Shown here: piece after piece, positions 6,741 through 30,947 of the stretch | Numbering within the stretch: the stretch's first letter is position 1 | Layout of the letters: every line of letters starts with the position of its first letter | Assembly (NCBI GenBank): GCA_018698135.1 | Contig: JABINZ010000280.1 | Coordinates: 1-32,062, forward strand | Length of the DNA stretch: 32,062 bases | Direction: 5' to 3' | Source of the DNA: Bacteroidota bacterium | GTDB lineage: Bacteria > Bacteroidota > Bacteroidia > CAILMK01 > JAAYUY01 | The notes under the pieces: model-generated | Database searches by the model: none | What the model was told of the DNA's origin: nothing | Seen by the model: the letters and a program-made list of their open reading frames with translations, nothing else | Program-made: the position numbers and the translations under genes

Positions 6741-6755
6741 GATTAAGCATTCTAC

Positions 6756-12800: not shown

Positions 12801-14228
12801 TGTTGGTCCATCAACGCTAAGCATGGCAATATCTTTTCCGTTAATATCGACTTTGTCGGCACCAATAATAGAAAATGTGTTTCCTCTTGCATCACCATCT
12901 ATGTCAACTGCAACATCTGTGTTTGGGCCCATCAATAAGGGTGATGAAGCTGTCAGATGCATATCGGTTGTACTGGCTAAATATGGATTTGAGCTAATAG
13001 AATTTACATTGAGAGTTGGATTTGCAGTTTGCCATGCACTTAATGAAGAGCGTGTTGCCCCTCCCCAAGTAACAAAATAATTACCTGTGCTATAGTAGTT
13101 GTTGTAATCAACACTTCCATCGGCCCAGGATCCGTAGTTTTCATAAATGCAACGACCATAAGAGCCACCGCTATTGACAAAAATATTACTTTTTATTTCA
13201 CAACCATTGTTGTAATAAGCATAAATTCCACAATAGGAGGTTGATGAACTACTTGATTTTGTCCAAATGGTATTAAAAAGGACTTTGGTATTTTCTGCAC
13301 GATAGAAATAAATTCCACGATTGTATCTAAACCCAAAGTTATAAATCATGTTATTGGCTAACAAACTCTGGCCTTTAACATAATAGTTGTTATAGTAAAA
13401 ATACATTCCATAACGTTGTGTTTGGATATCATTATGGGTAACGGTGTCTGAAGTACCATAATAAAGCATTATACCATAACCACCTGTAGATGTTATATTA
13501 CGTATTGTATTACGCTGTACATGCATTTCACCATTATAATATATATACATTGGGTAATAATACTGATCCGTAATTAAGTTATCAAGGAAGTTGTTTCCCA
13601 AGTTTGGAGAGGAAGATCCTCCACCATACATTCGGATTCCATAATAACCACCATAAATAGTGTTTTCACTAATGGTATTGTACCAGGCGTTATTTCCTGA
13701 TGTTGAATAACTGGTTTTACTACCAGAGGCAATAATAGGAATTCTATAGGAAGCTGAACCTTTACCCACATTGATATAACAATTATGAATAGTGTTATAT
13801 CTCGAATTGTTTGTGAAAAAGAAACAGTTCGCATAAGAAGATCCTGTGTTCTGGACTTTCATGTCTTTAAACACAAAATAATCTGCACCATCAAACTGAA
13901 CAGTAGACCAGTTGGATGTTGACGATCCCGAATACGTAAGGGTAGTTTGTGTGTTACCAGCCCCGATAAAACTAATTGTATTGGTTAAACTTGCGCCTGA
14001 AACAGGTGTAAGAATAATTTTTTCGCTGAACGTTTGCGCTGCAACATTAAATACAACAGGACCACTTACTCCTCCTGAATTCAAAGCTGATACTGCAGCT
14101 GAAAAAGTTGTATAATTACCGGCTGAACCAATTGTGTAAGTTCCAGATAATTGTCCGTATGCAAATTGACTCATCAATAATGCACTTACGAAAACCAATG
14201 AAAGAAAACGTGTAAAATTTCTCATCAT
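6813..14228 (-). CDS. giant T9SS-secreted multidomain protein with two beta-helix modules
   Basis: 2471 residues. A signal peptide (to about residue 25, ending AYGQ) leads into two homologous right-handed beta-helix modules (about 26-430 and 573-980), joined by a CARDB-like linker. Then come: a BNR-associated N-terminal-like domain (about 1000-1170), a GEVEDF domain ending GEVEDFLLYIAPE (near 1306), PKD domains, a CUB-like domain (about 1504-1650), two more PKD domains, a second GEVEDF-type domain ending GEFEDYGLEI (near 1970), about five DUF5011/Ig-like repeats (1980-2385), and a T9SS type A sorting domain with YYPNPADRILTI and a C-terminal EKFIIAH. It should be exported by Sec and then T9SS to the surface or medium. 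No catalytic residues are recognised. An adhesin or glycan-binding role is a guess. It has its own promoter and terminator. Confidence 0.88.
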   Translation of the reverse strand: MMRNFTRFLSLVFVSALLMSQFAYGQLSGTYTIGSAGNYTTFSAAVSALNSGGVSGPVVFNVAAQTFSEKIILTPVSGASLTNTISFIGAGNTQTTLTYSGSSTSNWSTVQFDGADYFVFKDMKVQNTGSSYANCFFFTNNSRYNTIHNCYINVGKGSASYRIPIIASGSKTSYSTSGNNAWYNTISENTIYGGYYGIRMYGGGSSSPNLGNNFLDNLITDQYYYPMYIYYNGEMHVQRNTIRNITSTGGYGIMLYYGTSDTVTHNDIQTQRYGMYFYYNNYYVKGQSLLANNMIYNFGFRYNRGIYFYRAENTKVLFNTIWTKSSSSSTSYCGIYAYYNNGCEIKSNIFVNSGGSYGRCIYENYGSWADGSVDYNNYYSTGNYFVTWGGATRSSLSAWQTANPTLNVNSISSNPYLASTTDMHLTASSPLLMGPNTDVAVDIDGDARGNTFSIIGADKVDINGKDIAMLSVDGPTTWSTGNNTLEVTFANLRKTVVNSLDFGYQLGNGTPVNITGYTPSASLNQGDGMAYSFSTPVNIPADGTYSLKIWVAKPNNSSPDDVPANDTLYYTLKTSLNGTYTIGGSGADYTNFSDAVDDLNTSGIAGPVTFLVAAGTYSEKISLSEVLGASASNPIKFIGAGSTQTILTYAGTSTSNWTTVTLDGADYVTFKNMRVQNTGSSYANCFFFTNDARHNLIDSCYINVPSGSASYTIPIIASGSKTSYSTTGNNAWYNTISNNTVYGGYYGIRFYGGGSSTPNLGNNFINNLVTNQYYYPMYIYYNGEMHVTDNVIRNVSASTGYGIMLYYGTSDTVLRNDVQTGAYAFYFYYQNRYISGNSLFANNALYNFGYTSYNRGVYAYYAQNTKFYHNTIRTNISSNSTSYCGMYLYNNSGCELKNNIFHDGGNYGYSIYRSSGTWASGSVDYNCYYNQNNNFVYWGSSYNNLAAWKSAYSTLNANSWEINPGLKSTTDFHLTTASLTLQAPYIGIDDDIDNQSRPNTTVFIGADEPEPMVFDSFVVTDLSPQFAFAGQTRVKMLKVDIKITGIANPLPISAAYFSTNGCSDPADLEKFRWYNQNGAPLDDMDQIYTVDNPSGVITIIPPSGTNVGDVVQIFAAYDVEFGATVNDSMDMSFDSAMIDGVMRYAKVGNSNPVGSTYIVAPSSYADYCDVVRVQNGAYSIGTRRIKFEDIDVKSGTLDMGFVPNNSVVQFNTTPVPTVHRKVTYPITIQHGELNDQSTSIFLDYNNDGYFTANERVKDFINIPEASKTESFITIPCDVTTGIHRMRIVSDYGAYTPNPCGTTNYGEVEDFLLYIAPEKTPVVSITNKDTGYVSGLVLFTPVLDTDGDIFILWDYDNNNVVDDTSDMGEYYFATTGIKTVAVKAVNQGCFDTTTSAIAYTSIVIVQATTVPVTNFISDNNILTPNTTVNFTDLTTNGPFAWEWVITPDTINGNSTHTFLGTSSDREPSVIFHEIGDYTVSLTTQNTIGYNTATKVDYISVLKEEVFCSDFSSRAITGFVFDNGGSNNYTNPTSGDDYTCDYLLIPDCANAVTLDFLDFDVASNVLNGCNTIPSDGLRVYDGTDNSGTPLHLQFLDGNGDPMFPNGFTNGPGNASIGIPPSVTANSGSMYLEFYVNCGAVGTGFKAKWTAQTFTPTAPVASITGQDTIYTNQVAYFNSSSIGALDFYWDMDDDGWADLFTENVSWQYTTAGVHTITLIAYTCGKLDTTTFDLVVLDPTSKPVVDFYADYTNITIVDPVVLTEDADNTVYEWQWDITPMDYTILSGDLNETSFSAVFNKVGKYTVKLVCTNQQGKDSMVKVDYIYVYKSCTPLVGNLNPDVGISKFTLQNIGGDTLIQNSSSIGMTAYTDYSVLKKATVAKTGTYTFTLDRNTNFNKITRSIYIDYNQDGDFNDVGEEVAKQYNSSSLSWTIDVTIPSTIATGLAKMRIATNAGQLNNKGCGPNFSGEFEDYGLEITEDVSVPVITLIGNNPLISNSCASYAEPGYMAWSNVQGNLTSSVVVTGTINPTVADTYDIKYNVTSPAGIAAMQVIRQVIVLKDIVNPEPMLNGNNPDSAAVGNMYTDPGYTPTDNCSGVKSHSYVNNVNGMVVGWQQVMFVLEDNAGNIDTSYRDVYIYDDIDPTITLLGSNPIMLEAGDVFNDPGADPQDNYYSGLTYEVIGSVDVNQLGTYFLSYCVTDSSGNGPVCVDRTVIVEDNTPPTLTMIGANPFILPVHQNFKDPSVDIVDNYYSFANGEIILTTNSTVNTYVLGTYTVTYQAVDGSGNVSAIMTRTVEVVDQIAPTIELLGSTTVTIERWQDYVDAGVKVHDNYDAEAVLTINNNSNGTYPDNTFEEGLYTYSYSVCDVSGNCSGDIFRTIYVLPSTSSIDEKDLSEFISYYPNPADRILTITIDLPVYKDIKVSVINTLGEEVVDVFAGSIKAEQKTIDVSKLSSGMYYIRIYAGDKQYNEKFIIAH
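11290..12510 (-). repeat. second beta-helix module (intragenic repeat, copy B)
   Basis: It encodes residues about 573-980. Blocks shared with copy A include TGSSYANCFFFTN, IPIIASGSKTSYST, YYYPMYIYYNGEMHV and GYGIMLYYGTSDTV. Boundaries are approximate. DNA differences between the copies fall largely at third codon positions. Confidence 0.75.
12940..14150 (-). repeat. first beta-helix module (intragenic repeat, copy A)
   Basis: It encodes residues about 26-430, directly after the signal peptide. It is collinear with copy B, starting GTYTIG-AGNYTTFSAAV and ending near STTDMHLTASS (copy B: STTDFHLTTAS). The repeat offset is roughly 1.64 kb. Confidence 0.75.
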
Positions 14229-14450: not shown

Positions 14451-17400
14451 TTACTTTGTCAAAATGAACTTCTTATTGAACTCGGTATCTTCTCCAACAT
14501 TAAAGCGGATATAATACATACCAGCTGCAAGGTTGTTTACGTTTACCTGATAAAGATCATTCATTACATAACCTTCATTTACATCCATTACTTTTTCGCC
14601 AAGTGCATTGAAAATTGATATTTGTACATGCTTGTAAGAAGTCATGGCCACTTCAATGTTTAATACATCGGTAACAGGATTTGGATAGTAGCTGAAGTTT
14701 TCTTCACTTACTACGTCATCGATAGAAGAAGTGCTCTCTGAAACATAAACAAATCTGGTTAGTACGGCTGACTTGTTGCCAGAACCATCTTCAACCTGAT
14801 AAGTAATTGAATAGAGACCTACTTCCTGTGTACTCATAAATGTACCAGCATTTGGAAGAAGTGTCAAATCAGCAGGATCTTTGTAATAATTATCACGTGC
14901 TGTTACACCTGGATCCATTAAGCTATCCCATCTTTCAACAGTCATTAACGAACTACCAACTAATTCAATTTCTGGAGCTACTCTGTCGACAACATCGATA
15001 GTAATAACTACATCTGCTGAAACATTTCCAGCTGCATCAGTTGCATTGAAAGTTAATGGGTATGAACCAACTTTGTATGTGTTCACACTTCCGGCTGTTT
15101 TCATTACGATAATATTAGCTGGATCCCAAACCAAATCCGTTACAGTGTAAGCAGGAGTGGTATAAGGATGGAATACATCCAGTGTATAAGTTGATTGTGC
15201 AAATGTTAAGGTTGGTGCTTTAGTATCTTCAACGATAACCAAACGGTCAACACAGTTAGGTCCGTTTCCTGAATTGTCAGAAACACAATATGTGAGGAAG
15301 TAAGATCCTAATTTGTCAACGTCAACAAAACCTTTTAAACTGGCTACTAAACCTGTATCATAATTATCAGAAATCGAAACCCATGGGTCAACAAATGCTG
15401 TTTTGGCTTCCCAATAAATGGTGTCATTTCCTAATAATGTAATGTCAGGATTAATGTCATCATATACTTCAACATAGCGATAAACAGTATCTGAATTACC
15501 TGCTAAGTCTGTACCCCAGTAGCTAATTGTATAAACACCGGTTACATTAACATCAACAGTACCGGCTGATCCACTAGCTGATGCATCAACACCACTACAA
15601 TTGTCAGTGTATATTGCTCCAGGATCTGTATATGCACTGCTAAATACAGCAACACGGTCGTTCATATTACCATTCATTGTAATGGTAACAGGAATAATGT
15701 CTTTTAACACTTCAACAACACGTATGGCTTGTACAGCATCATTACCAGCATCATCTTGTACATCATAAGTTAAAGGATAATAAGCAGCAGCTAAAGGATT
15801 GATAGCTGATGTGCCATTAACAACAACTTGTGAAGTAAGATCACCACTTACATCATCCCAACCTTTGTAACCTGGTTCTACCCAAGTAGCACAAGAGTTC
15901 AGAATAAATGTATCAGGACTTGCCACAACGTCAGGGAATGCAGGGTTGAACAATTCAATATAAGGAATAACGTCATCATTCTTGATTACTAAACCATAAT
16001 CTTCAAATTCTCCTGAATAGTTTGGTCCACAACCTTTGTTGGTTAGAATACCAGCATTAGCTGCAAGTCTGAGTTTGGTTAAACCTGTAAATACGTTTGC
16101 TCCACCAGCAGGAATAACAATTGTGTCAACCCACTCAGTTTGGCTTGAATTTTTAAGTTCAACTAATAAATCTTCTGGTCCATTGTATTGTCCATCTTGG
16201 TTTAAGTCGGCAAATACTGTCCAGTTGATGTTATTGAAATTTGAATTTCTCTTTACAGTAATTTTATAGGATCCTGTAAGATATAAATCAGCAATTTTCG
16301 ATTGGGAATAATCTGTATATGATCGTTGTCCAATAGAAGAAAGGTTCCTGATTAAGGTATCACCAGCTAAATTCTGTAACATGAATTCAGACATACCAAG
16401 GTCGGCATTTAGGTTGGCAACACCTGGCTCACAGTTCTTATATACATTAATATAGCTGACTTTTACCATGGAGTCGATTCCAACTGCATTGTAACAAATA
16501 AGCTTTACAGTATAAGTACCCAATTCAGTGAATTGTACCTGAATATCTGAACTGTTTTGATCTGTACCATTCAAGAAATTGAAGGTAGGAGGATCAATAG
16601 ACCAGAAATAGGAATAAACAGTATTATCTGACTTATCCATTATAGTTAATGGATTCACTTTTGTTGTACGAACATAATCTGCTTCGAAATCAACAACAGG
16701 AGCTGCTATTGGATTGATAACAGTTAAGCTGATATAAGATGTATCCAAGAAATCGCAACTCTGAACAATAAGTCTGATGGTATAATTACCAGTAGCTGTA
16801 TATACCCATGAAGTTAATGAATCGTATGTGTCGTTAAAACCATCACCATTTAAATCCCAGAAATAATCTAAATCGTAACCAGATGAAATACTGGCAAATT
16901 CTATAGTTTTTAATCTGTAAACAGTTGTAGGACCAGCAATAATTGCTGTTGGAGGTGAAGGAGTGAAAATGGTTGTTGACCAAAATCCTTCGAAACCTGT
17001 TCCAACACCACCGCAGTTTCTGTTAAATTCAATAAACATTGAACCTGTTGATGAGGTAACTGAAGGAACGATAACAGGAGAATTACCTCCTCCATTTTGG
17101 AAACCTAATGGGAACATTGGGTTGCCTAAAATATCTTTAACACCTAAATGTAAAGGAGTGCCTGAATTGTTTTTACCTTCATAAATACGGATGTTATCTC
17201 CAGCTGTTAGATTGATACAACCTGTACTGTTGTATGAACATACATCAAAGTCAAGGAAGTCAAGCGATACAGATGAAGCACATTTTGGCTCAATCAAATA
17301 AGTACACGTAACATAAGTGTTACCAGCCTGATCAGCATAATTACCATATTTTCCACCATCATCATAAATATAACCGGAACGAAGTTTAGTACTTGCATCG

Positions 17401-19406
17401 GTACACATGATGTTTTCTTTACCAACACTGATGTAATCTACTTTTGTATTGGTTGCAGATCCAATGATGTTTTTGGCCCATAATTCAACTGTATATGTTC
17501 CAATTTCATGGAATTGAACAGTTGGATTTTGTTCTGTATCATCAGAAATAGTGAAAGCAGGCTGACCGTTACCAGCTAAAACCGGAGTAATAGTCCACTT
17601 CCATTCGTTTGGACCTAATGTTGAAAGGTCAGTAATTTCAATAGGAATAGAAGGGGTAATGGTATTTAAGTTGGTAATGAAATTAACACCAGGAGCTGTA
17701 GTTGGCGCTAAAATATTTATAGTACCTGAATATACAGCACCTAATATAGTATCTGTACAACCATAAAGTACACCTCTAACGCGAACAGTTTTTGTACCTG
17801 CACTTGTAAATGCATAAGCACCATTCATGGTTGTTGTATCATCCCATGTGTTATCATTGTCATAATCCCAAATATAATTGATGTTTCCACCAACGGAAGA
17901 TTCAGGAACTAACTGGGTGAGTCCACCTACATAATTAAGTGGTTTTTCCGGTGTAAATGTAACAACAGGAGTACCTGATGGAGCAATAAACATTAAATAA
18001 TCTTCAGCTTCACCAGTTGTTGTATTTCCACAAGCAGGTGCGCCAGCGCCATCTGAATCGACAGATATTCTCATTCTGTGATAACCAACAGTGGCATTAC
18101 ATGGAATTGTAATATTATCATTAATAATGGTTGCAGGAGCTAATCCATTATAGGTTGCAACCAATTCATTTGATTCAAAATAGGAGTTATTATCCCAATC
18201 AACATATAGTTTTGCCATTCTTCCGTTAAAAGCAGCATGCTGCATCATAATCGGATATGTTTGCTGACTATATACTGTTGCAATGTCATCAGTATAAAAA
18301 TCAACTGAATTACCGGTTGCTGCGAAAACACCTGATGTGTGATCAATGTCTCCGAAAATAACACGTGTTAATCCAATTAAATAGTTCAAACCAGATGTCC
18401 TGTTATAGGCACAATAGTTTGTGTAATCTTTAGGATGAACAATTGTTCTGTTGCCAGCAGGATTACCAGCTGTGCCAGCAGTTCTAATTGTATCGTTAAT
18501 ACGGGCAGCTAAAAGCTGACAGTCAATTTTATTGCCAGGAGTGGCCGTATAAGAAATATCATATGCTAAGTAAAGATGGTTGTCACCATATCCGAGTACT
18601 GTTCCCGAATCGAAAACAAACATAAATGTACCATTGGGATTCGCAATAGGATCGCCCAATTGGTTGTAAGAACTAAGTGGATTTCCATCGGTATGGAAAA
18701 TTCTAACGTTTTTGATGTCAGCAGCATTGGTTGTTCCGTTTGTTGAAAACCAAACTGTATCAATAGGAAGTGGATCGGCAATACCATTATATGTATTAAC
18801 GGTTGCTGTCATAATTTTCACCAAATTCTGACTGATAAAACAATCACTGGTATCCTGTGTTGCCGTTATATTGCCAAGAAACATTTTTGCCGGAGCAGGA
18901 ATGTCAACATTGAAATCGCCAGAATTACCATAAGTAACATTTCCACAAGGATCTGAAGTTGAACCCAGCCAATTGGTTCTGAATCTCAACCTTTTTGTAC
19001 CATAATTCCCGGCAGGAACGGTAAAGGTTGTTGTGTAAGTGGTGCCTGATGCTACACAATTATATCCATTTACTACAATTTCAGAAGATTGAAATGTGCC
19101 ATCACTATTGACATCAATCCAAACTGTTACATATGTGCTGCTATAGCCAGCAACAAAAGAAATTGAAACAGTAGTTCCAGGGATAAGGGTAGCCACATTA
19201 CCTGAAGTCCAATCATGATAATAGGCAGGAGTTCCTGCACAAGCCACGGCTTGATTTGTTGTTCCAAAGGAAATGTTGGTTAAACCATCACCATATGTAC
19301 ATCCACTTGAATAAGCTGGAGTACAATATGTTTGTGCTTTAGAAATGTTAGTACCAACAAGTAAAAACACTAACGAGGATAACAAAAGTGTAAAACGTTT
19401 TTTCAT
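14451..19406 (-). CDS. giant T9SS-secreted multidomain protein with GEVEDY, CUB, PKD and Ig-like domains
   Basis: 1651 residues. Signal peptide MKKRFTLLLSSLVFLLVGTN to about residue 24. Domains in order: a GEVEDY-like domain (26-170, terminal motif degenerate, GNSGDFNVDI); a BNR-associated N-terminal-like domain (172-330); a GEVEDY domain ending TGEAEDYLMFIAP (near 465); two PKD-type domains (480-665); a CUB-like domain (667-815); two PKD domains (820-985, with YFWDLNGDGFND); a GEVEDY domain ending GEFEDYGLVI (near 1145); about five DUF5011/Ig-like repeats (1150-1565); and a T9SS type A sorting domain with FSYYPNPVTDVLNI, ending KKFILTK. The order from the BNR-type domain to the C-terminus matches the neighbouring 2471-residue protein, so the two are tandem paralogues. 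Many aspartate-rich loops (e.g. DLNGDGFND) suggest calcium binding. Function unknown; probably a surface structural or binding protein. Confidence 0.88.
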   Translation of the reverse strand: MKKRFTLLLSSLVFLLVGTNISKAQTYCTPAYSSGCTYGDGLTNISFGTTNQAVACAGTPAYYHDWTSGNVATLIPGTTVSISFVAGYSSTYVTVWIDVNSDGTFQSSEIVVNGYNCVASGTTYTTTFTVPAGNYGTKRLRFRTNWLGSTSDPCGNVTYGNSGDFNVDIPAPAKMFLGNITATQDTSDCFISQNLVKIMTATVNTYNGIADPLPIDTVWFSTNGTTNAADIKNVRIFHTDGNPLSSYNQLGDPIANPNGTFMFVFDSGTVLGYGDNHLYLAYDISYTATPGNKIDCQLLAARINDTIRTAGTAGNPAGNRTIVHPKDYTNYCAYNRTSGLNYLIGLTRVIFGDIDHTSGVFAATGNSVDFYTDDIATVYSQQTYPIMMQHAAFNGRMAKLYVDWDNNSYFESNELVATYNGLAPATIINDNITIPCNATVGYHRMRISVDSDGAGAPACGNTTTGEAEDYLMFIAPSGTPVVTFTPEKPLNYVGGLTQLVPESSVGGNINYIWDYDNDNTWDDTTTMNGAYAFTSAGTKTVRVRGVLYGCTDTILGAVYSGTINILAPTTAPGVNFITNLNTITPSIPIEITDLSTLGPNEWKWTITPVLAGNGQPAFTISDDTEQNPTVQFHEIGTYTVELWAKNIIGSATNTKVDYISVGKENIMCTDASTKLRSGYIYDDGGKYGNYADQAGNTYVTCTYLIEPKCASSVSLDFLDFDVCSYNSTGCINLTAGDNIRIYEGKNNSGTPLHLGVKDILGNPMFPLGFQNGGGNSPVIVPSVTSSTGSMFIEFNRNCGGVGTGFEGFWSTTIFTPSPPTAIIAGPTTVYRLKTIEFASISSGYDLDYFWDLNGDGFNDTYDSLTSWVYTATGNYTIRLIVQSCDFLDTSYISLTVINPIAAPVVDFEADYVRTTKVNPLTIMDKSDNTVYSYFWSIDPPTFNFLNGTDQNSSDIQVQFTELGTYTVKLICYNAVGIDSMVKVSYINVYKNCEPGVANLNADLGMSEFMLQNLAGDTLIRNLSSIGQRSYTDYSQSKIADLYLTGSYKITVKRNSNFNNINWTVFADLNQDGQYNGPEDLLVELKNSSQTEWVDTIVIPAGGANVFTGLTKLRLAANAGILTNKGCGPNYSGEFEDYGLVIKNDDVIPYIELFNPAFPDVVASPDTFILNSCATWVEPGYKGWDDVSGDLTSQVVVNGTSAINPLAAAYYPLTYDVQDDAGNDAVQAIRVVEVLKDIIPVTITMNGNMNDRVAVFSSAYTDPGAIYTDNCSGVDASASGSAGTVDVNVTGVYTISYWGTDLAGNSDTVYRYVEVYDDINPDITLLGNDTIYWEAKTAFVDPWVSISDNYDTGLVASLKGFVDVDKLGSYFLTYCVSDNSGNGPNCVDRLVIVEDTKAPTLTFAQSTYTLDVFHPYTTPAYTVTDLVWDPANIIVMKTAGSVNTYKVGSYPLTFNATDAAGNVSADVVITIDVVDRVAPEIELVGSSLMTVERWDSLMDPGVTARDNYYKDPADLTLLPNAGTFMSTQEVGLYSITYQVEDGSGNKSAVLTRFVYVSESTSSIDDVVSEENFSYYPNPVTDVLNIEVAMTSYKHVQISIFNALGEKVMDVNEGYVMNDLYQVNVNNLAAGMYYIRFNVGEDTEFNKKFILTK

Positions 19407-21787: not shown

Positions 21788-22855
21788 TCAATACTTCACG
21801 CCATTTACCCGATTATACTCTGTAATGTTCATTTGGTTGTTGGCAAACCAGCTTTCGAATGAAGCCATTTGTTTACTGAAAATTTTGATCCAGTCATTGT
21901 ATTCAGCAGGGAAGGAATCTTTGAAAAGCCAGAAAATATAGGCTTCAAGATGATCCGATTCTGAGATTGTTTTTTCCCATTCAAAAATAAAGCAGGGATA
22001 TTCCAATTCCTTTTTACGAAACCAATAATTGACAAAATCCCGGTAATAAAAATACATATTGGTTAACGACAAGCCATCTTCAAGTCGATAGAGTCCAATT
22101 TCAAGTGTGGTTTCATATGATTCTGCAAAGTTGACAACAAACTTTTTCTCATCAAATTTATCCAATCCATAAGTTGCTTTTTCTTGTGTAAGTTCAACAC
22201 TTACTTCATCGGCTGTATTGATGGTAATTGAATTTCGCCAGGTATCCATCATGAGCTTTTTAATCTCCAGCGTTCTTTCGGTGGTTTTCTCGAGGTTGAC
22301 AAAAATTTCACCATAAATCAGCGTCCACATACGCTCCACAGTTCCAGCATATAATTTGGCAGCCTGATAATAATACTCTGCTTCATCGGGTTGCAAATTA
22401 ATTGCATGGTCGAAATACAAGCGGGCTTTGGCAGGATCAGAATTAATCATTTGCATGGCTTCGTGTGCATATTCCTTTGCAGAAGAAGGGCCTTTTACAA
22501 TAACTTCTTTTGGTTTAATGTTGTATTCCTTGCCAAGCGATTCGTATAAATTGGCTAAAAAAGCATGATAGTCTTTGAGATTGGTGTTTTCTTTTAAAAC
22601 AGGATCAATAATTTTCCAGGCTTTTTTCCCCTTGCCTAACATATAATAACCATAGGCAATGTTGTATTTATAATCGATATTTTTCTTGTCAATTTTCAAG
22701 GCTTTCTTGTAAAGTTTAATCCCGTCTTTGTATTCTTCGAAGCGAATTTTATTGGCTCCTTTTTCAGCCAATTGTTTTGCTCCATCTTTTCCATCTTGAG
22801 CATAGGTTAAACTAAACAGGAAAAGTAAAATTGATAAGAATCCAATTTTTTTCAT
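21788..22855 (-). CDS. exported TPR-repeat protein of unknown function
   Basis: 355 residues. The signal peptide MKKIGFLSILLFLFSLTYAQ is followed by TPR-like helical repeats at about 25-110 (IRFEEYKDGIKLYKKALKID; YNIAYGYYMLGKGKKAWKII) and 125-170 (SDPAKARLYFDHAINLQPDE). The C-terminal half, about 175-355, is rich in aromatic and charged residues and matches no family I recognise. With no lipobox and no sorting domain it is probably periplasmic. It starts 11 bases after the stop of the gingipain-like gene, so the two are very likely co-transcribed and may act together. Its 3' end abuts the repeat tract. Confidence 0.8.
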   Translation of the reverse strand: MKKIGFLSILLFLFSLTYAQDGKDGAKQLAEKGANKIRFEEYKDGIKLYKKALKIDKKNIDYKYNIAYGYYMLGKGKKAWKIIDPVLKENTNLKDYHAFLANLYESLGKEYNIKPKEVIVKGPSSAKEYAHEAMQMINSDPAKARLYFDHAINLQPDEAEYYYQAAKLYAGTVERMWTLIYGEIFVNLEKTTERTLEIKKLMMDTWRNSITINTADEVSVELTQEKATYGLDKFDEKKFVVNFAESYETTLEIGLYRLEDGLSLTNMYFYYRDFVNYWFRKKELEYPCFIFEWEKTISESDHLEAYIFWLFKDSFPAEYNDWIKIFSKQMASFESWFANNQMNITEYNRVNGVKY

Positions 22856-22866
22856 GATGATTTGTT

Positions 22867-24843
22867 TTATTCAACAATTATTTTACGAATAGAAGTAGTA
22901 GCGTCTGAATTTATGTTGAGAAAATAGATGCCTTTGCCATATTCTGCCAAACGAAGTTTTACGATCAGCTCATTTTGTGCATCCTGAAGCTGGTTGTGAT
23001 AAAGTTGCTGTCCTACAGCATTTGACAAACTAATTTGAACATCTTTAGCCTGATTTCTTTTTATTAAAACAGTTAATTCATCTTTCGTAGGATTGGGATA
23101 CGTGCTGACGATTGCTTGAGCCTCCTTTTCCTGAAGGGATGTAGGCCAATTGGTGGAGGTGGAGTCAAAAATCCCCTGACTAAGTTGATAAAAACTTCCA
23201 CTACCTGAAACCTGAAGTTTCATTGCACGTATCATATACACATTGTTTCCATTGAGTGAGGCTTCATCTAAATAAGAGTTGCCAATAACCAAATTGCTAT
23301 TAATTTTTTCAAACTTGCTTTTGAGGCTATTTGCCCGGAATATTTCATATCCTAAAATATCAGGATCAGCTGAAGCAGTCCAGTTTAGTTGAACAGTTAC
23401 GTTTCCAACGCTGTCGGCTTTCAATGAAGTAGCTGGTTCAACTATGTGCATGCTCAAAGTTGGGTCGCCCATTAATGCCACATGAACCCAGCGAGCGCCA
23501 TAACCAGCTGGATATAAACTGCTGTTATTTTGCGTTAGCCTGGTTGAATAACCAATGTGTTTTCCTAAGTCCATGTGATGGATATGCCAATGAGGTCGCC
23601 CAGCCCAAAAAGTGGCTAATGGAGATGTGGGGGCAGCCAGAGGTGCGCGAAGGAAATTGTTTTGGGCATCCCAATCGCCAAAATAAGAACCGAATAAGGG
23701 AGTGAAAACAGCTTTGATAGTGGTTGCAGCAATATCGGTTGTTTTGCCTATTCCTCCGCAAGAAGTATAGGATCCTCCTCCACAACCATAAGCCCATAAG
23801 TAGGATTCTGTTGCCAGTGTGCCTAAGAAATCAAGAGCACTCACATTGTCAGCACCAAACATGGCAGAAAAATATCTCCAACCCGTTTGTGCAAATCCTT
23901 CATCATAACTTTTAAAATTGTCATCAATCAGGGCTCTTTTTTCTGCCTTTAATATGGCATGACGGAAATCATGATTTTTATTTAAGTACTGACGAATTAA
24001 TTCCACATCACTTAAGGCAAAAGCGGGCATATTGTATAAATCAACACGACCAACTTCTAAATCAACATCAGATGGTATTACACTTTGATCGAATTTCCCA
24101 TCTCCGGGTATATTGTCATTTTCATCTCTTGAAGCTGTTACATTGTTAATGGATGCATCTGTCCAACTTCCATCAATCTCACCATAATACAAATCAGCTG
24201 GCCATGCACCAAGGTGATCACCGTGTGCGTCCGGATTAATATTTCCTGAATAGGGCACAGGAATATGTCCTAATAGAAAAACAGTACTTAACTCTGGTGT
24301 TGCTGTTTTATCGGCAATAATCAGATCGCGTATATCCGAAACGCTTGTCCCTCTTGAAATGTCGTGTCGAATAATTCGCCATCCATCTCCAATTAAATCC
24401 ATTTCTAAACGGTCAATTTCTGTTTTGAGATCAATTACATAATTACTGTCAACTAATAAAACTACGGTGCCTCTGTATTCAATGGCAGGCATTTCAATCC
24501 CGGCATATAGATAGCTGTAACCTTTTAAGTTGCCTATTCCTCGGTTTTTATAAAACTTGTATTCATATGCTTCTCCGCTTCTAACCTGATCATCTACAAA
24601 ATAAGTTGAGGTGTCGGCAATGTTAGCATAAGCTGGCCCCCAACTGCTGGCATTAATTTCTTTTTTCGAAATAACGTAGTATTCAGCGCTTGCATCAGCT
24701 GGCCAGCTAAAAATAATTTTTGGTGTTGATGTTTCTACCTGACAACTTACCTTAATGGTTTGGTCTTCGGCTTTGGTCTGTGAAAAAACAAAAAATGGTA
24801 AAAACAGTGATAAAACTAAAATTAGAGTAAATGATTTTGTCAT
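22867..24843 (-). CDS. T9SS-secreted gingipain-fold (C25-like) protein with altered active site
   Basis: 658 residues. A signal peptide (to about 21, ending FVFSQ), an N-terminal FN3-like domain (about 28-120), a C25/caspase-like region (about 125-470), an FN3 domain (about 475-565) and a T9SS type A sorting domain with STYPNPTKDELTVL at the C-terminus. The C25-like region has LLGHIPVPYSG (near 190), HGDHLGAWPADLYYGE (near 205), YGCGGGSYTS (near 353), GSYFGDWDAQNNFLRA (near 385) and VHVALMGDPTLSMH (near 460). In gingipains a catalytic GHG histidine and a cysteine about 33 residues later occupy the third and fourth positions. Here these read GCG/GGG and Ser-Tyr-Phe-Gly-Asp, so the normal dyad seems absent. 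This is my alignment by eye. It heads a two-gene unit with the TPR protein. Confidence 0.75.
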   Translation of the reverse strand: MTKSFTLILVLSLFLPFFVFSQTKAEDQTIKVSCQVETSTPKIIFSWPADASAEYYVISKKEINASSWGPAYANIADTSTYFVDDQVRSGEAYEYKFYKNRGIGNLKGYSYLYAGIEMPAIEYRGTVVLLVDSNYVIDLKTEIDRLEMDLIGDGWRIIRHDISRGTSVSDIRDLIIADKTATPELSTVFLLGHIPVPYSGNINPDAHGDHLGAWPADLYYGEIDGSWTDASINNVTASRDENDNIPGDGKFDQSVIPSDVDLEVGRVDLYNMPAFALSDVELIRQYLNKNHDFRHAILKAEKRALIDDNFKSYDEGFAQTGWRYFSAMFGADNVSALDFLGTLATESYLWAYGCGGGSYTSCGGIGKTTDIAATTIKAVFTPLFGSYFGDWDAQNNFLRAPLAAPTSPLATFWAGRPHWHIHHMDLGKHIGYSTRLTQNNSSLYPAGYGARWVHVALMGDPTLSMHIVEPATSLKADSVGNVTVQLNWTASADPDILGYEIFRANSLKSKFEKINSNLVIGNSYLDEASLNGNNVYMIRAMKLQVSGSGSFYQLSQGIFDSTSTNWPTSLQEKEAQAIVSTYPNPTKDELTVLIKRNQAKDVQISLSNAVGQQLYHNQLQDAQNELIVKLRLAEYGKGIYFLNINSDATTSIRKIIVE

Positions 24844-25188
24844 AAATTAATGTTTAGATTCTTCGGACAGCTAAGATATAAATTTAATGTGAATTGATAA
24901 AGGGATTTAGTTAACAATGCCTTTTGTGAAAGCCTAGGTGAATAAATAAAGCATTGCATTATTGAAATACATAAATATTCAAATAATAATCAACTTCAGA
25001 TTATCTTCAGATTGTTCGCAGTAAAATTGCATGTGAAAAATGAAGGATAAAACAGGCTTGGTTTGAACCTTTGGACAATCGAACTTTTGTCAATCAGGAA
25101 AAGGTTAAGTTTTATTTTTTCATTCGTTTTTCATTCAGCAGATTGTGTGAATCTGTTGTCATTTTTTTTAAATAACGACATAATAATC
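24844..25188. other. 345-bp divergent control region upstream of the haem operon and the gingipain-like gene
   Basis: No gene is seen. Two CTTCAGATT copies lie at 24994-25002 and 25005-25013, exactly 11 bp apart. A TATCTTAG box on the minus strand (about 24874-24881) could serve the gingipain-like gene. No full TAnnTTTG element with proper spacing was found for the haem operon. An in-frame TTG at 25063 would extend hmuY but is not credible. Confidence 0.5.
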
Positions 25189-26478
25189 ATGAAAAAATTA
25201 ATACTAAGTTTAAGCATTCTCCTCTTACTATACACACAGGCAACTTCAACCACTTTACAGCTTTTTGAAGGTGATTCAATTGAAATGGGTTCCGATTATG
25301 CAAATGATGTTTTCTATAGTTTTGCGAATGGAAATGTTGCTGAAGAAGACCGCTTTATGTGGGATATTGCTTTTAGAACCAACATCATGAGCTCTTCCAT
25401 TATCATTAATGGTGGATCAGGAGTTGTGCTTTACACCTATCAAAATGGAGATACATCGGGTTGGATGTCAGCTGATACCAGCGGACTTTCTGGCTGGAAA
25501 GCGATGAATAATAGCCTAACTGATTGGGAAGAAGGTGCTTTTTCTGCACATGCAGGAACACATCCCGATTACGGCTGGTGTAATTACAATTCAACCACCC
25601 ATAATTTAATTGCTGATTCATTCTATATCATAAAGTTAACCGATCAGTCTTTCAGGAAAATATGGCTAGTTAAAAAGGAATCATCAAAAAATAAATATCA
25701 TTTTATGTATGCTATGTTGGATGGTTCGCAAGAAAAATCAGTTGTACTCGATTGCAATACATATATGACTAAAGATTTTGTTGCTTATGATCTGTCCAAT
25801 GATGTTGTCAGAGATCGTCAGCCAGCCAAAACAGATTGGGACATGGTTTTTACAAAATATGTCGACAAAGTATACATGGGACCTACTCCTGTCGATTATC
25901 CGGTTATGGGTGTTTTAACGAATGAAGGAGTCTATGTTGCACGAGTTGTGGGACAAGAAGAAAGCACATATGAGGATTATGTAAATGAAACATTCGACTC
26001 AACTTCAATATCTGTTATAGGAAGAGATTGGAAAGCATCAAACGGTATGCCTCCGGTTTATTATATGGTGGATTCTTTGTTGTATTTTGTTTCAGATATA
26101 AATGGAAATATTTACAAACTTTATTTTACTGATTTTGTGAGTGGATCTACCGGAACGGGTAAAGTTGTTTTTAATACAAAAAATATTGGTGGAAGCTCTG
26201 TTTATAACGATCAGGGCATTAAGCAAGCTGAATTTGTTGTTTATCCAAATCCTGCAAGGGCAGGAAATTTAAACTTTGTTTTGCATGCTGTTGAAAATGC
26301 ACAAGTCAGTCTTGACATTTACACAATGATGGGACAAAAAGTACACTCCACCAAATTTGAGCATAGTACAGGTTTAAGTAGGCTTAGTTTGAATTCATTA
26401 TCCTTAAGCCAAGGAAATTATATTGCTAAAATTAATGTTAATGGCCGAACAATGGTTCAGCAATTTGTTATTAATTAA
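25189..26478 (+). CDS. HmuY-family haem-binding protein with T9SS sorting domain
   Basis: 429 residues from the ATG at 25189, chosen because it begins a normal signal peptide (MKKLILSLSILLLLYTQATS). The open frame extends to a TTG at 25063, but that would bury the signal. HmuY features: FMWDIAFRTN near residue 55, followed by SIIINGGSGV, then a second pseudo-repeat KTDWDMVFTKYVDKV and YPVMGVLTNEG, and LYFVSDINGNIYKLYFTDF before the linker. The C-terminal 80 residues form a T9SS type A domain (VVYPNPARAGNLNFVLH, ending QQFVIN). HmuY proteins capture haem and hand it to a TonB-dependent receptor. A histidine-rich stretch (HAGTHPDYGWCNYNSTTHN) may matter, but ligands cannot be assigned. First gene of a three-gene operon, 17 bases before hmuR. 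Confidence 0.87.
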   Translation: MKKLILSLSILLLLYTQATSTTLQLFEGDSIEMGSDYANDVFYSFANGNVAEEDRFMWDIAFRTNIMSSSIIINGGSGVVLYTYQNGDTSGWMSADTSGLSGWKAMNNSLTDWEEGAFSAHAGTHPDYGWCNYNSTTHNLIADSFYIIKLTDQSFRKIWLVKKESSKNKYHFMYAMLDGSQEKSVVLDCNTYMTKDFVAYDLSNDVVRDRQPAKTDWDMVFTKYVDKVYMGPTPVDYPVMGVLTNEGVYVARVVGQEESTYEDYVNETFDSTSISVIGRDWKASNGMPPVYYMVDSLLYFVSDINGNIYKLYFTDFVSGSTGTGKVVFNTKNIGGSSVYNDQGIKQAEFVVYPNPARAGNLNFVLHAVENAQVSLDIYTMMGQKVHSTKFEHSTGLSRLSLNSLSLSQGNYIAKINVNGRTMVQQFVIN

Positions 26479-26495
26479 GCGATCGATTGTTGTTC

Positions 26496-28730
26496 ATGTC
26501 AAAACGATTAGTACAGAAGCTGTTTGTTATATCTGCCTTGGTTCTCCTTTTTTCAGGAGAACTGATTGCACAGGATATTAACATCCGTGTCGTTAATAAA
26601 TACTCAAGAGAACAGCTTGCTTTTGCCAATATTTGTCTGGAAAATGTGCTGACCAAAGAGAAGCAATTTGTTACCACCAATGAAAATGGATTTGTTACAG
26701 TTCAAGCAAATGGGCGAAACATTATTGTAATTTCATATATTGGTTTTGAAAACCTGATAGATACCATAACAGCATCTGAGAATTTGATTTTTGAGCTGTT
26801 GCCTTCCAGTTATCAGGAGAATGAATTTGTGGTAACTGCCCAATACACACCTGTTAAGGCCGATCAATCAATCTACAAAGTGAAGGTGATTGATGTAAAC
26901 CAAATTAGTGAAAAAGGAGCCAATAACCTGAGCGAATTGTTGGCTACAGAGCTGAATATAAGAACCTCACAGGACAACTCCCTTGGATCCAAAATGAGCA
27001 TGCAAGGTTTGTCAGGCGAGCACATAAAATTGTTGATAGATGGAGTTCCTGTAATTGGGCGGATGGATGGTAATATTGATCTCAGTCAGCTGAATCTGCA
27101 CAATGTCGATCATATTGAAATTGTGGAAGGGCCTATGTCGGTTATCTACGGAAGCAATGCATTGGCAGGAGCGATAAATATTATAACCAAAGAAAGCAAA
27201 TTGGCTCGGTTTTCAACAGCTTTCGATACCTATTATGAATCAGTTGGTGTGTACAATTTTTCGGGAATTATTTCCGGAAAAAAGAAAAACCATATTTACT
27301 CTATTTCAGCTGCCAGGAATTTTTTTGGTGGCTATAGTGAAACTGATAGTGTACGGTCGAAGCAATGGAATCCCAAAAGGCAATACACCACCGATGCGTA
27401 TTATATTTATGACCTAAAGAAAATGAAGTTTAAGTATTCTGCTTCCTTTTTTCATGAATTATTGCAGGATAAAGGCGATTTGCAGGCTCCATATTTTGAA
27501 AATGCTTTTGATCAATATTTTACAACCATTCGCTTGGCTAATAAATTGGATTTCAGTGCAAAACTGAAAAGCGACCGATTTCTGAATATATTATTTTCCT
27601 ATTCCTCATTCAATCGTGCTAAACAAACCTATTTCACCGATTTAACCACTTTGGAACAAAACTTAACCTCCTATGAATTCGATCATGATACCAGCTTGTT
27701 TCATGCCTATTTGTTAAGAGGTACTTTCAGTAAAAGCAAGAAGGAAAGTAAATTCAATTACCAGTTGGGCTACGATTTTAATATTGAAAGTGGAGGTGGT
27801 AAACGCATACTGAATCAATCTCAAAATATAGGTGATTATGCTGCTTTTTTAAGTGTGAAATACAGCCCAAGCAATCTATTAACTTTTCAACCTGGTTTGC
27901 GATATGCCTATAATACACGTTATGAGGCACCTTTGGTTCATTCACTAAATATAAAATGGCAGGCAGCTCAAAAACTGCTGTTCAGAGCATCTTATGCAAG
28001 GGGATTTAGAGCGCCATCTTTAAAGGAATTGTATTTGTATTTTGTGGATGTAAATCACAACATTATTGGCAACGAAAATTTGCAGGCAGAATACGCTTAT
28101 AATTTCAGTTTATCAGCAGCTTATAAATTCAGTAAATCAAAGCATAATTTTGGTTTTGAGACTTCTCTTTTTAATAATATTATCGAAAATATAATTACCC
28201 TTGCTGCCGAGGATGCCACTCACTATTCATATATTAATGTTGATCATTTTAAAACACATGGTGGTCAGTTTAATTTCACTTATCAGATGCACCCCCGATT
28301 TACAGTAAAGACGGGCTTTTCCTTAACCGGACGATATAATTCTTTTACAGATGAAAATCCGACATTAGCTGATTTTACCTATAGCAAAGATGTGAGTGCA
28401 AACCTAAGATACAAGAACGTAAAGTACAAGTTTTTCATTTCAGTTTATTATAAGTATAACGGCAAATTGCCACAATTTTATTTAAGTGATAATGGGGTGA
28501 TAAGTGAAGGCTATATTAGCGATTATCACAGCATGGATATGTCGTTTGGAAGACGATTTGTGAAAGACAAATTGGAGGTATCAGCCGGTGTGAAAAATTT
28601 ATTTGATAACACAAATATTGTAGGCATTGGCAGCAGTGGTGGAGTGCATACTGATGGAGGTGGAAACACACCTGTTGCATGGGGTCGAACTATGTTTTTC
28701 AAACTTGCTTATGTATTTAATACATATTAA
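26496..28730 (+). CDS. TonB-dependent haem receptor, HmuR-like
   Basis: 744 residues from the ATG at 26496; a TTG three codons upstream is also in frame, but the ATG gives a clean signal peptide (to about residue 26, ELIAQ). A carboxypeptidase-regulatory-like beta domain (about 28-105) precedes a TonB-box-like ENEFVVTAQ, the plug (NNLSELLATELNIRTSQ; VIYGSNALAGAINIITKES) and the 22-strand barrel region to the C-terminal aromatic residue. FRAPSLKELY (near 503) and GNENLQAE (near 524) correspond to the FRAP and NPNL boxes of haem receptors, with a histidine (VNHNI) between them, as in HmuR. It would import haem through the outer membrane using TonB energy. Flanked by two HmuY-family genes, the next overlapping its stop by one base. 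Confidence 0.92.
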   Translation: MSKRLVQKLFVISALVLLFSGELIAQDINIRVVNKYSREQLAFANICLENVLTKEKQFVTTNENGFVTVQANGRNIIVISYIGFENLIDTITASENLIFELLPSSYQENEFVVTAQYTPVKADQSIYKVKVIDVNQISEKGANNLSELLATELNIRTSQDNSLGSKMSMQGLSGEHIKLLIDGVPVIGRMDGNIDLSQLNLHNVDHIEIVEGPMSVIYGSNALAGAINIITKESKLARFSTAFDTYYESVGVYNFSGIISGKKKNHIYSISAARNFFGGYSETDSVRSKQWNPKRQYTTDAYYIYDLKKMKFKYSASFFHELLQDKGDLQAPYFENAFDQYFTTIRLANKLDFSAKLKSDRFLNILFSYSSFNRAKQTYFTDLTTLEQNLTSYEFDHDTSLFHAYLLRGTFSKSKKESKFNYQLGYDFNIESGGGKRILNQSQNIGDYAAFLSVKYSPSNLLTFQPGLRYAYNTRYEAPLVHSLNIKWQAAQKLLFRASYARGFRAPSLKELYLYFVDVNHNIIGNENLQAEYAYNFSLSAAYKFSKSKHNFGFETSLFNNIIENIITLAAEDATHYSYINVDHFKTHGGQFNFTYQMHPRFTVKTGFSLTGRYNSFTDENPTLADFTYSKDVSANLRYKNVKYKFFISVYYKYNGKLPQFYLSDNGVISEGYISDYHSMDMSFGRRFVKDKLEVSAGVKNLFDNTNIVGIGSSGGVHTDGGGNTPVAWGRTMFFKLAYVFNTY

Positions 28731-29734
28731 TGAAAACGAACCTATACATATTGTTTTTGATATTATCCATGGTTGGATTGCAGTCTTGTTTTGAAAAGGA
28801 TGTGTTGGTTCCAAAGCACAATTCTGGAGATATACAATCTGCTGAAATTGAAATGGCTGAGGATTATAAGTATCAGGTTTATTTTGACTTGGGAACAAAT
28901 AAAGTGATTTCCTCTAATCATAAAACCGATTGGGATCTGGCATTTGAGAGTTCAGATACCGGCTATAGTATCATTATGAACAATTCAAAATTCATGAAAA
29001 TGCTTGTCGTTGGTGTAACTAATTTTTATGCTGCATTTGATACAACCGGAGGCAATTGGAAATTTGATGAGCCATCAGGACATACTGATTCTATGGCCAT
29101 TGGTAAATGGGCTGATTTATCTAAAAATCCACCAATTTCATATAAATCAGTTTATGCCATTGATTTAGGAATGAATGAAGAAGGTAATCAATTGGGTTAT
29201 CGGAAAATACAGCTGCTGGCTTACAATGAAGGGTATTATTTGAAATATGCTGAACTGGATGGTGGCAAGGAAGATAGTTTGCTAATTCCAAAAGATACCG
29301 ATAGAAATTATGCTTATTTTTCTTTTAAAAATGGAGGTAAACAAGTTAATATCGAACCTTTGAAAACGAATTGGGATTTACACTTCACACAATATTCACA
29401 CGTTTTGTATACCGATGAAGGAGAAGCTGTTCCTTATTTGGTTTTAGGTGTTCTGTTAAATCCGTTTAAAGTGTTGGCCACAGTTCTGAAGGATACAGAT
29501 TTTGATAACATTTCCTTTTCCACCGTCAATCATTTGTCTTTGCTGAATCAACGCGATATTATTGGCTATGAGTGGAAAAAGTATAGCTTTACCAATGGAA
29601 CCTATGAAGTTAATTCCCAGGATGTATATATTATTCAGGATACTGATGGATTTTTATACAAGTTTCGTTTCATAAGTTTTTATAATCAGCAAGGAGATAA
29701 AGGCTTTCCTACTGTTGAATTACAAAAGCTATAG
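28730..29734 (+). CDS. HmuY-family lipoprotein, second haem-binding paralogue
   Basis: 334 residues. A lipoprotein signal peptide ends at the lipobox LQSC (Cys near residue 20), so it is probably anchored at the outer membrane. It aligns with the HmuY protein upstream of hmuR: TDWDLAFESS with SIIMNNSKF, then KTNWDLHFTQYS, YLVLGVLLNPF, IIGYEWKKYSF and VYIIQDTDGFLYKFRFISF. It has no T9SS sorting domain. The ATG overlaps the hmuR stop (TAATG), suggesting coupled translation. A surface lipoprotein acting with the receptor matches the known P. gingivalis HmuY arrangement. The operon is thus secreted HmuY, receptor, lipoprotein HmuY. Haem ligands are not assigned. Confidence 0.87.
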   Translation: MKTNLYILFLILSMVGLQSCFEKDVLVPKHNSGDIQSAEIEMAEDYKYQVYFDLGTNKVISSNHKTDWDLAFESSDTGYSIIMNNSKFMKMLVVGVTNFYAAFDTTGGNWKFDEPSGHTDSMAIGKWADLSKNPPISYKSVYAIDLGMNEEGNQLGYRKIQLLAYNEGYYLKYAELDGGKEDSLLIPKDTDRNYAYFSFKNGGKQVNIEPLKTNWDLHFTQYSHVLYTDEGEAVPYLVLGVLLNPFKVLATVLKDTDFDNISFSTVNHLSLLNQRDIIGYEWKKYSFTNGTYEVNSQDVYIIQDTDGFLYKFRFISFYNQQGDKGFPTVELQKL

Positions 29735-29752: not shown

Positions 29753-29760
29753 TAAATTTG
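29753..29760 (+). promoter_or_regulatory. -7 box overlapping the annotated start of the DAHP synthase gene
   Basis: TAAATTTG matches TAnnTTTG. It contains the TTG start codon at 29758 itself. If it is used, the mRNA would begin near 29766 and the start must be the in-frame TTG at 29779. Confidence 0.35.
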
Positions 29761-30873
29761 CCCAAGAAAAATAATCACTTGGCAGCACTAAACTTACAAG
29801 CAATATCAACCTGGAATCCTTTATTGAAAGATAAACCACTTATTATAAGCGGTCCTTGCAGTGCAGAAACCGAAAAGCAATTATTGGATACGGCTTTAGC
29901 TCTGAAGAAAATTGATAGGGTTAAAGTAATCAGGGCAGGTATTTGGAAGCCCCGAACCAGTCCGAATTCATTTGAAGGAGTCGGCAATATTGGTTTGCAG
30001 TGGCTGAATACAGCGAAAAAGGAAACCGGTTTACTCACTACTGTAGAAGTAACTACACCTGAAGATATTGAAGCATGTTTGCAAAATGAAGTTGATATTT
30101 TATGGATAGGAGCACGCTCAAGTTCAAACCCCGTTTATATTCGCAAACTTGCTGATGCATTAAAAGGCATTGACATTCCAGTACTGATTAAAAATCCAAT
30201 ACATCCCGATATCGATTTGTGGATTGGAACATTGGAAAGGTTCAATAAAGTAGGGGTTTCAAAACTTGCAGTTGTTCATAGGGGCTTTTTCCCTTTTGAA
30301 AAAACAGCTTTGCGAAATATTCCCAAGTGGGAGATACCTCTGGAACTAAAACGCAGATTTCCTAACTTACCCATTATTTGTGATCCTAGTCATATTGCTG
30401 GAAACGTAGATTCAATTTTTGAAATAGCACAAAAAGCACTCTATTTGGGAATGGATGGATTGATGATTGAAAGTCATATTGATCCAAAAAGCGCCTTGAG
30501 TGATGCCAAACAACAAATGTCACCACAGCAGTTAAGTCTTTTATTGGATAGCTTAACCTATAGCCATTTTGTTTTTGAAAGCAATTTAAAGCACGATAAG
30601 CTGGAAGTGTTCAGAGAACAACTCGATAGCATTGATCAACAAATGATAGAACTTCTTTCTCAGCGCATGGAAATTGTTGAGCAGATTGGGGAGTATAAAA
30701 AGAAAAATAATCTCACTATTTTTCAATTAAGACGTTGGCAAAAAACCATTAATCTCAATACCAAAATTGGACGAAAAATGGGTTTGTCAAGAGAATTTCT
30801 GGTGAAATTGGTTTCTCTTATTCACATGGAAAGTATTCTCAGGCAAAATGATGTGATGAATAGGGAGGACTAA
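29758..30873 (+). CDS. bifunctional DAHP synthase / chorismate mutase type II
   Basis: 371 residues. The N-terminal DAHP synthase domain (about 25-265) has PLIISGPCSAETE (27-39), VIRAGIWKPRTSPNSFEGVG (near 58-77), WIGARSSSNP and CDPSHIAGN. This domain condenses phosphoenolpyruvate and erythrose 4-phosphate at the start of the shikimate pathway. The C-terminal chorismate mutase domain (about 279-371) has LEVFREQLDSIDQQMIELLSQRMEIVEQIGEYKKKN, quoted here in part as REQLDSIDQQMIELLSQRM, and converts chorismate to prephenate. The fusion is usual in Bacteroidota and allows feedback by the mutase domain. No ATG is available: the start is TTG at 29758 or, perhaps better, TTG at 29779, which gives MAALNLQAISTW. 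It follows the haem operon by 23 bases but has its own candidate -7 box and a terminator after it. Confidence 0.92.
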   Translation: MPKKNNHLAALNLQAISTWNPLLKDKPLIISGPCSAETEKQLLDTALALKKIDRVKVIRAGIWKPRTSPNSFEGVGNIGLQWLNTAKKETGLLTTVEVTTPEDIEACLQNEVDILWIGARSSSNPVYIRKLADALKGIDIPVLIKNPIHPDIDLWIGTLERFNKVGVSKLAVVHRGFFPFEKTALRNIPKWEIPLELKRRFPNLPIICDPSHIAGNVDSIFEIAQKALYLGMDGLMIESHIDPKSALSDAKQQMSPQQLSLLLDSLTYSHFVFESNLKHDKLEVFREQLDSIDQQMIELLSQRMEIVEQIGEYKKKNNLTIFQLRRWQKTINLNTKIGRKMGLSREFLVKLVSLIHMESILRQNDVMNRED

Positions 30874-30919
30874 GCTTAATTTGCTAATTCGGCAATGATA
30901 AACCTCACAGCTTTTGCCT

Positions 30920-30947
30920 TAGTTGGTGTTATCACCAACTAGTTTTT
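30920..30947 (+). terminator. rho-independent terminator after DAHP synthase/chorismate mutase
   Basis: TAGTTGGTG / CACCAACTA (30920-30928 and 30933-30941) form a perfect 9-bp stem with a TTAT loop, followed by GTTTTTG. The loop side GTGTTATCAC also has a 10-base inverted copy at 30963-30972. Confidence 0.75.

Follow-up and report, generated by a model that had tools for sequence, protein, structure and literature searches.

The locus analysed here is supported as a haem operon in which two distinct HmuY-fold proteins, one with a type IX secretion system (T9SS) sorting tail (T) and the other lipid-anchored (Y), flank a single TonB-dependent receptor (R). This two-HmuY module, of the HmuY/HmuR kind, is real and widespread, and a relay of haem between its components is plausible, though unproven. 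The most useful new result is a link, seen across relatives, between haem synthesis and the presence of putative haem-dismantling genes beside the module. Throughout, "the window" denotes the whole stretch of DNA that was analysed, with a length of 32,062 nucleotides.

Organization of the locus and folds of its proteins

The receptor gene lies between the two HmuY genes, as the original prediction had placed it (Table 1), and the stop codon of R overlaps the start codon of Y in a TAATG in which one A is common to both, so that the proposed coupling of Y to R holds as well. The sorting domain ascribed to the first HmuY was recovered by profile searches (Por_Secre_tail, 8.5e-10; TIGR04183, 46.8 bits against a cut-off of 23), and the lipobox ascribed to the second is present (LQSC, with Cys20). 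T has the properties of type A T9SS cargo, namely a signal peptide, a type A C-terminal domain and a T9SS in the genome, where SprA scores 2497 bits.

Table 1. Features of the T-R-Y locus (positions in the window)
Feature	Position	Strand	Details
Direct repeat CTTCAGATTATCTTCAGA	24994..25011	+	about 180 nt upstream of T; candidate regulator site
T, T9SS-exported double HmuY protein	25189..26478	+	429 aa; ATG 25189; signal peptide, two HmuY-like halves, C-terminal sorting domain
First HmuY-like half of T	25264..25764	+	residues 26-192; HmuY match 25294-25680
His138 of T, candidate haem ligand	25600..25602	+	His in 78/78 aligned T proteins
Second HmuY-like half of T	25765..26193	+	residues 193-335; HmuY match 25924-26166
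T9SS type A C-terminal sorting domain of T	26239..26475	+	residues 351-429; Pfam, NCBIfam
R, TonB-dependent receptor	26496..28730	+	744 aa; ATG 26496, 17 nt past T stop
His521 of R	28056..28058	+	between FRAP and NENL; His in 78/79 receptors
Y, lipoprotein double HmuY	28730..29734	+	334 aa; ATG 28730
Lipobox Cys20 of Y	28787..28789	+	Cys in 58/58 aligned Y proteins
First HmuY-like half of Y	28817..29299	+	residues 30-190; HmuY match 28862-29104
Second HmuY-like half of Y	29300..29731	+	residues 191-334; HmuY match 29303-29719

The Pfam HmuY model (PF14064) matched both proteins over its cut-off (T, 9.3e-14; Y, 1.3e-17), each in two stretches, and these four hits, two per protein, are all that the model gave in the host genome. 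Each protein is about twice as long as classical HmuY and has an internal repeat, a doubling that the original prediction had missed. Within T, hhalign matches one half to the other (94%, E 1.3e-7), and it does so within Y as well (85%, E 5.9e-6); between the two proteins the homology runs from end to end (100%, E 2.2e-49, 272 columns). Because the repeat and the lengths of 429 and 334 residues do not suit the classical single-domain protein of about 200 residues, T and Y are assigned to a double-length branch of the HmuY family and not to classical HmuY. When 116 T and 100 Y proteins were placed in one tree, all T were separated from all Y by a single branch (support 0.948), a split that would suit one old duplication.

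AlphaFold2 models were obtained with mean pLDDT values of 91.5 for T and 94.5 for Y, and HmuY-family structures lead the Z-ranked fold matches of both, in agreement with the proposed HmuY fold; chance matches to the HmuY model are thereby ruled out. The top solved match of Y is 3h8t HmuY (Z 16.2, rmsd 2.5, 136 residues aligned), and its other top matches all belong to the same family (Z: 6ewm 15.8, 8b6a 15.7, 6r2h 15.5, 3u22 14.1, 4gbs 13.8, 6eu8 13.4 and 8b61 12.5). Searching the Y profile against PDB sequences gave six HmuY-family entries and nothing else at E<=1. For T, the top matches are PinO 6r2h (Z 13.2, rmsd 3.4, 148 residues aligned) and 3h8t (Z 12.8), while its C-terminal domain matches T9SS C-terminal domains (8qb1, Z 11.2; 8glk, Z 10.2). 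The HmuY fold of T is taken from this Z-scored list and not from the Foldseek ranking of the whole model, in which unrelated beta proteins outrank HmuY and 3h8t stands at rank 26, probably because of the sorting domain. Since the fold alignments span residues 26-334 and 32-334 with about 135 residues aligned, the models hint at a composite HmuY core, to which repeat one would contribute its first half and repeat two its last half.

Upstream of T, the direct repeat CTTCAGATTATCTTCAGA occurs once in the window against 0.14 expected (up to 3 mismatches allowed) and is kept in the genus-mate G001, where the remaining upstream region has drifted; it may be a tandem regulator site. Scans for sigma-70-type promoters (23 against 26.1 in shuffles) and terminators (2 against 4.1) gave no excess, and thus a stem-loop at 25136-25158 is not claimed. 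Y is followed by a DAHP synthase gene and then by an ORF without a Pfam match. The former, a DAHP synthase/chorismate mutase gene (29758-30873, plus strand), begins 23 nt past Y in the same orientation, precedes a terminator-like stem-loop (30919-30942) and is also a neighbour of the module in the genus-mate; it possibly forms one transcript with the haem genes. On the minus strand of the window, two very long adjacent ORFs (6813-14228 and 14451-19406; 2471 and 1651 aa) fall into the same similarity cluster. Another minus-strand gene (22867-24843), divergent from T and adjoining a TPR protein gene (21788-22855), encodes 658 aa; its product carries a T9SS sorting tail and matches no further Pfam family over cut-off.

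Occurrence of the module and the proposed route of haem

The order HmuY(T9SS)-receptor-HmuY(lipoprotein), which had been proposed as a search target, was sought in two collections of genomes and is common in both, ruling out a rare one-off arrangement. The relatives set consisted of 100 relatives and the own genome, with 40 regions fetched, and PF14064 was matched in 34 of the 100 relatives. With the own locus included, 29 of 36 T loci have T-R-Y on the same strand. The others comprise two with the order R-Y-T (L079, L086), two with T-R at or near contig ends, whose Y lies on a different contig of that genome (L071, L073), one with T divergent from R-Y (L091) and two with T but no R-Y nearby (L055, L087). 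The named set came from a separate search and holds the best 80 of 168 loci, ranked by likeness to a mainly slot-bearing query, a bias by which the shares of slot and compact loci in it are not population shares; at least 8 of its loci lie on contigs that also occur in the relatives set. Among these best 80 of 168 loci, 64 are T-R-Y, two R-Y-T and one T-R-Y-R-Y-T, six show T-R ending at a contig edge, and seven show T alone. Three of the last group reach the contig end (L099, L153, L171), three do not (L116, L120, L123), and L129 may belong to either kind.

Y stays close behind R, and T is the looser part of the module. In the named set most R-Y junctions overlap or touch, 58 of 68 measuring <=20 nt, whereas T-R gaps are bimodal (up to 467 nt, or 1100 nt and more) and extend to 4 kb. 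The loci where T lacks R-Y nearby (L116, L120, L123, L055, L087 and perhaps L129) indicate that T is not strictly tied to R-Y. Two of them, L116 (labelled as an Azovibrio restrictus MAG) and L120 (labelled as uncultured Bacteroides), have the same local layout, and the former is probably a mis-binned Bacteroidota contig. In L070 (genome G067) the Y gene consists of two overlapping ORFs (5755-6764), reflecting a frameshift or an assembly error.

At E<=0.01, the Pfam HmuY model is matched by all 35 Y homologues and by 24 of 36 T homologues, and 35 of the 36 T homologues have the T9SS sorting domain. Most of 59 Y proteins start with C-x-K-[DE]-E (44 have K at +3 and 54 have E at +5); this is close to C-X-K-(D/E)2-X, which is a surface-lipoprotein signal after the lipid-bearing Cys according to excerpts of PMC5080379. 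The window Y starts with CFEKDV, which is off the optimal signal, and its surface exposure is therefore less sure than that of its relatives.

On balance, we consider it probable that the locus is a module for haem import whose two haemophores differ in reach, and which would deliver haem whole to this organism and haem to be dismantled for iron to haem-making relatives. T would pass through the outer membrane by the type IX system to the surface or the medium and serve as the haemophore of longer reach. Y, its lipid-anchored duplicate, made in coupling with R, would act as the membrane-bound partner of the receptor, and R would import haem into the periplasm with TonB energy. The haem path would most likely run from T through Y to R. 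In this organism the imported haem would be used whole, and in haem-making relatives the same module together with a dismantling gene would supply iron. A relay is consistent with the sorting tail and looser placement of T, with the lipid anchor of Y and with the close coupling of Y to R; the transfer and its direction are plausible on this anatomy, though likewise unproven. Counting against the module as proposed are the lack of an invariant His or Met in Y, a B. fragilis HmuY homologue that binds no haem, the off-signal start of the window Y, the Pfam HmuY match in only 24 of 36 T homologues, the T genes without R-Y nearby, the normal growth of a Flavobacterium columnare hmuY mutant, and receptor scores below every curated cut-off.

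We regard it as unlikely that the two haemophores instead work in parallel, each feeding R, with T collecting distant or protein-bound haem and Y free haem near the surface. Being homologous over their full length of 272 columns, both could dock on R, and T is also found away from R-Y; however, the R-Y adjacency, tighter than that of T and R, suits Y as the direct partner. Still less probable is that T serves as a surface haem sink or adhesin (for protection, biofilm or display) and that Y and R do all the uptake. T can occur alone, and deletion of hmuY in Flavobacterium columnare, whose HmuY is T9SS-tailed, caused no growth defect in the media tried (excerpts of PMC9618737), but the order of T with R-Y is strongly kept across many families, and His138 of T is invariant.

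Haem as the probable ligand and the proposed fate of imported haem

For the favoured haem-import module, sequence features and gene context suggest haem as the ligand. The invariant His138 may be a haem ligand of T. Y has not kept the classical ligand positions and contains no invariant His or Met, the best being H313 (40 of 58 proteins; Arg in the window) and H224 (35 of 58; present in the window). In P. gingivalis HmuY the haem ligands are His134/His166 (excerpts of PMC2671838), and any haem-binding mode of Y would thus differ from it. R has plug (PF07715, 1.1e-19) and barrel (PF00593, 2.3e-27) domains over cut-off and an N-terminal CarboxypepD_reg-like domain below it. Its best NCBIfam matches are haem and B12 receptor families with about equal scores, all below cut-off, including the haem receptor families TIGR01785 (112 bits; cut-off 316.85) and TIGR01786, so that the label "haem receptor" rests on motif and context. 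As to the motif, the His/FRAP/NPNL set is typical of haem receptors in the excerpts of PMC6449446, and R reads GFRAP...NHNIIGNENL, with NENL in place of NPNL; its His521 is residue 524 in an alignment frame that begins 3 codons earlier. Of 79 receptors, 58 have an exact FRAP and 75 have a second conserved His (718 in R numbering). As to the context, FecCD-type ABC transporter genes and HemS lie between T and R in eight loci (L065, L109, L128, L130, L134, L136, L154 and L158).

We think it quite improbable that another tetrapyrrole (porphyrin or cobalamin) or bare iron is the ligand of a re-used HmuY fold: R scores equally for B12 and haem families, the slot chelatase of relatives has its best score, below cut-off, with a sirohydrochlorin chelatase relative, and excerpts of PMC12106395 describe HmuY-fold proteins binding porphyrin or nothing, with B. 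fragilis HmuY-3 (BfrC) binding neither haem nor porphyrin, but the haem-receptor His and FRAP of R, the HemS and haem-type ABC ATPase in the same loci of relatives, and the tie to haem synthesis loss all argue for haem.

In the own genome (completeness 96.95%), HemB and HemH were sought and neither was found, and the same holds for HemS and CobN/HmuS; the genus-mate G001 and the family-mates G002 and G003 are also without HemB and HemH. The own genome carries two COX1 genes (haem-copper oxidase subunits), and this combination of haem-copper oxidases with no HemB or HemH means that haem import is probably required. The likeliest host is an aerobic haem auxotroph using imported haem whole. Of the iron-extraction genes carried by relatives (CbiX-type chelatase, DUF6607, HmuTUV with HemS), none was found in the window.

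Many relatives have, between T and R or beside the trio, a CbiX-type chelatase, a DUF6607 protein or ABC transporter genes with HemS, here called putative dismantling genes. The CbiX-type chelatase is secreted, mostly lipobox-bearing and often accompanied by a PepSY_TM or an FMN/4Fe-4S membrane protein. The three kinds are almost mutually exclusive, two of them occurring together in one of 49 loci (L142). Other recurrent companions in the T-R interval of L095-L154 are PepSY_TM_like_2, DUF6686, an FMN/4Fe-4S protein and RIC-type iron-sulphur repair proteins, to which we presume a DoxX-like membrane protein can be added.

HemH accompanies 14 of 16 loci with a putative dismantling gene and 1 of 21 without one in the relatives set with the own genome, and 32 of 33 against 3 of 16 in the named set (Fisher 2.7e-7 and 2.8e-8 for the two sets); pooled, the figures are 46 of 49 against 4 of 37 (Fisher 5.7e-16). 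In the named set, 50 of 65 candidate loci were examined and 49 counted, after exclusion of 8 contigs shared with the relatives set; L107, on a 4.4-kb fragment with a 467-nt gap, was excluded from the HemH counts (partial HemH below cut-off, HemB present). A Pagel test on the receptor tree (79 tips), which substitutes for a species tree and includes many MAGs, preferred dependent over independent change (LR 39.0, 4 df, p 7e-8), with the highest fitted rate for losing the dismantling gene once HemH had been lost. L101, L132 and L143 had no receptor long enough for this tree. The label used, a gene anywhere in the locus, is post hoc and was adopted once CbiX and DUF6607 had been seen beside compact trios; under the first label, based on the gap only, HemH was present in 9 of 41 compact and 38 of 41 insert loci (Pagel LR 21.9, p 2e-4).

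Exceptions occur in both directions, with a putative dismantling gene but no HemH in L058 and L060 (CbiX) and L109 (HemS), and with HemH but no such gene in L074, L105, L137 and L151. L074 shares its genome (G044) with another module, L073, which carries CbiX. The presence of HemB matches that of HemH in all counted genomes except G131 (L137), where HemH is present and HemB absent. L109 (G111), in which ABC transporter genes and HemS occupy the T-R interval but HemB and HemH are absent, is the clearest exception in the named set. We give a low probability to the view that the link reflects shared ancestry or genome incompleteness only, as the association appears in two separate sets and in the Pagel test and HemB and HemH are concordant in nearly all genomes, even though the two traits are common to neighbouring species, the genomes include many MAGs and the tree was one of receptors.

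These results raise the possibility, which we hold tentatively, that a single uptake module comes in two forms, determined by whether the organism synthesizes haem. Auxotrophs would have a form that uses haem whole; haem makers would have one that extracts the iron, and in it the secreted CbiX-type lipoprotein, DUF6607, and HmuTUV with HemS would be interchangeable haem-dismantling devices. These enzymatic roles are predictions. If the two-form reading is true, DUF6607 would be an undescribed haem-iron-releasing protein, and the secreted CbiX a de-chelatase of a class other than HmuS.

Comparison with known systems and significance

The locus resembles hmuYRSTUV of Porphyromonas gingivalis and Bacteroides in having an HmuY-fold lipoprotein beside a TonB-dependent haem receptor and in being used by haem auxotrophs. 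The original comparison with P. gingivalis, in which a single lipoprotein HmuY serves HmuR, is right as far as it goes. In contrast to that system, the window has two HmuY proteins, both double-length and one T9SS-tailed, the lipoprotein gene comes after the receptor gene, no HmuSTUV genes are found at or downstream of the locus, and CobN/HmuS is missing from the own genome. The CobN-like HmuS de-chelatase takes iron from haem beside an HmuY-HmuR module (excerpts of PMC12583661), whereas relatives have CbiX-type, DUF6607 or HemS genes and the own genome has neither CobN nor HemS.

A T9SS-tailed HmuY is already known singly from F. columnare (C6N29_01035; pfam14064 and TIGR04183). It is stated to be T9SS-secreted and, unlike the window proteins, is treated as a single protein, the excerpts of PMC9618737 describing no lipoprotein partner or shared receptor. 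In Flavobacterium psychrophilum, HfpR and the haem-binding, HmuY-like HfpY are encoded in one transcript with the receptor first, but with one haemophore and another gene between them (excerpts of PMC9331221). The hmu operon of Porphyromonas endodontalis has a gene for a T9SS-tailed protein (POREN0001_0445) upstream of hmuY; unlike T, its product is described in the excerpts of PMC11208336 as barrel-like and possibly a transporter, and not as HmuY. Excerpts of two further papers report that two or three HmuY homologues can occur in Porphyromonas species (PMC12106395) and that HmuY and HmuR of T. maritimum were detected in the secretome (PMC10288586). The excerpts searched in the open-licence PMC literature gave no account of a T-R-Y set, a double-length HmuY, or a CbiX or DUF6607 gene next to HmuY, and no paper naming DUF6607 was found in the same literature.

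The module would carry HmuY/HmuR, known from anaerobes associated with hosts, into Bacteroidota that are mostly environmental, in a widespread form with two haemophores. At its single receptor, type IX secretion would be combined with nutrient capture. Whether a dismantling gene is present would predict the fate of imported haem, whole use or a source of iron. DUF6607 thereby gains a testable functional prediction, and the putative dismantling genes may provide candidate haem de-chelatases outside the CobN/HmuS class.
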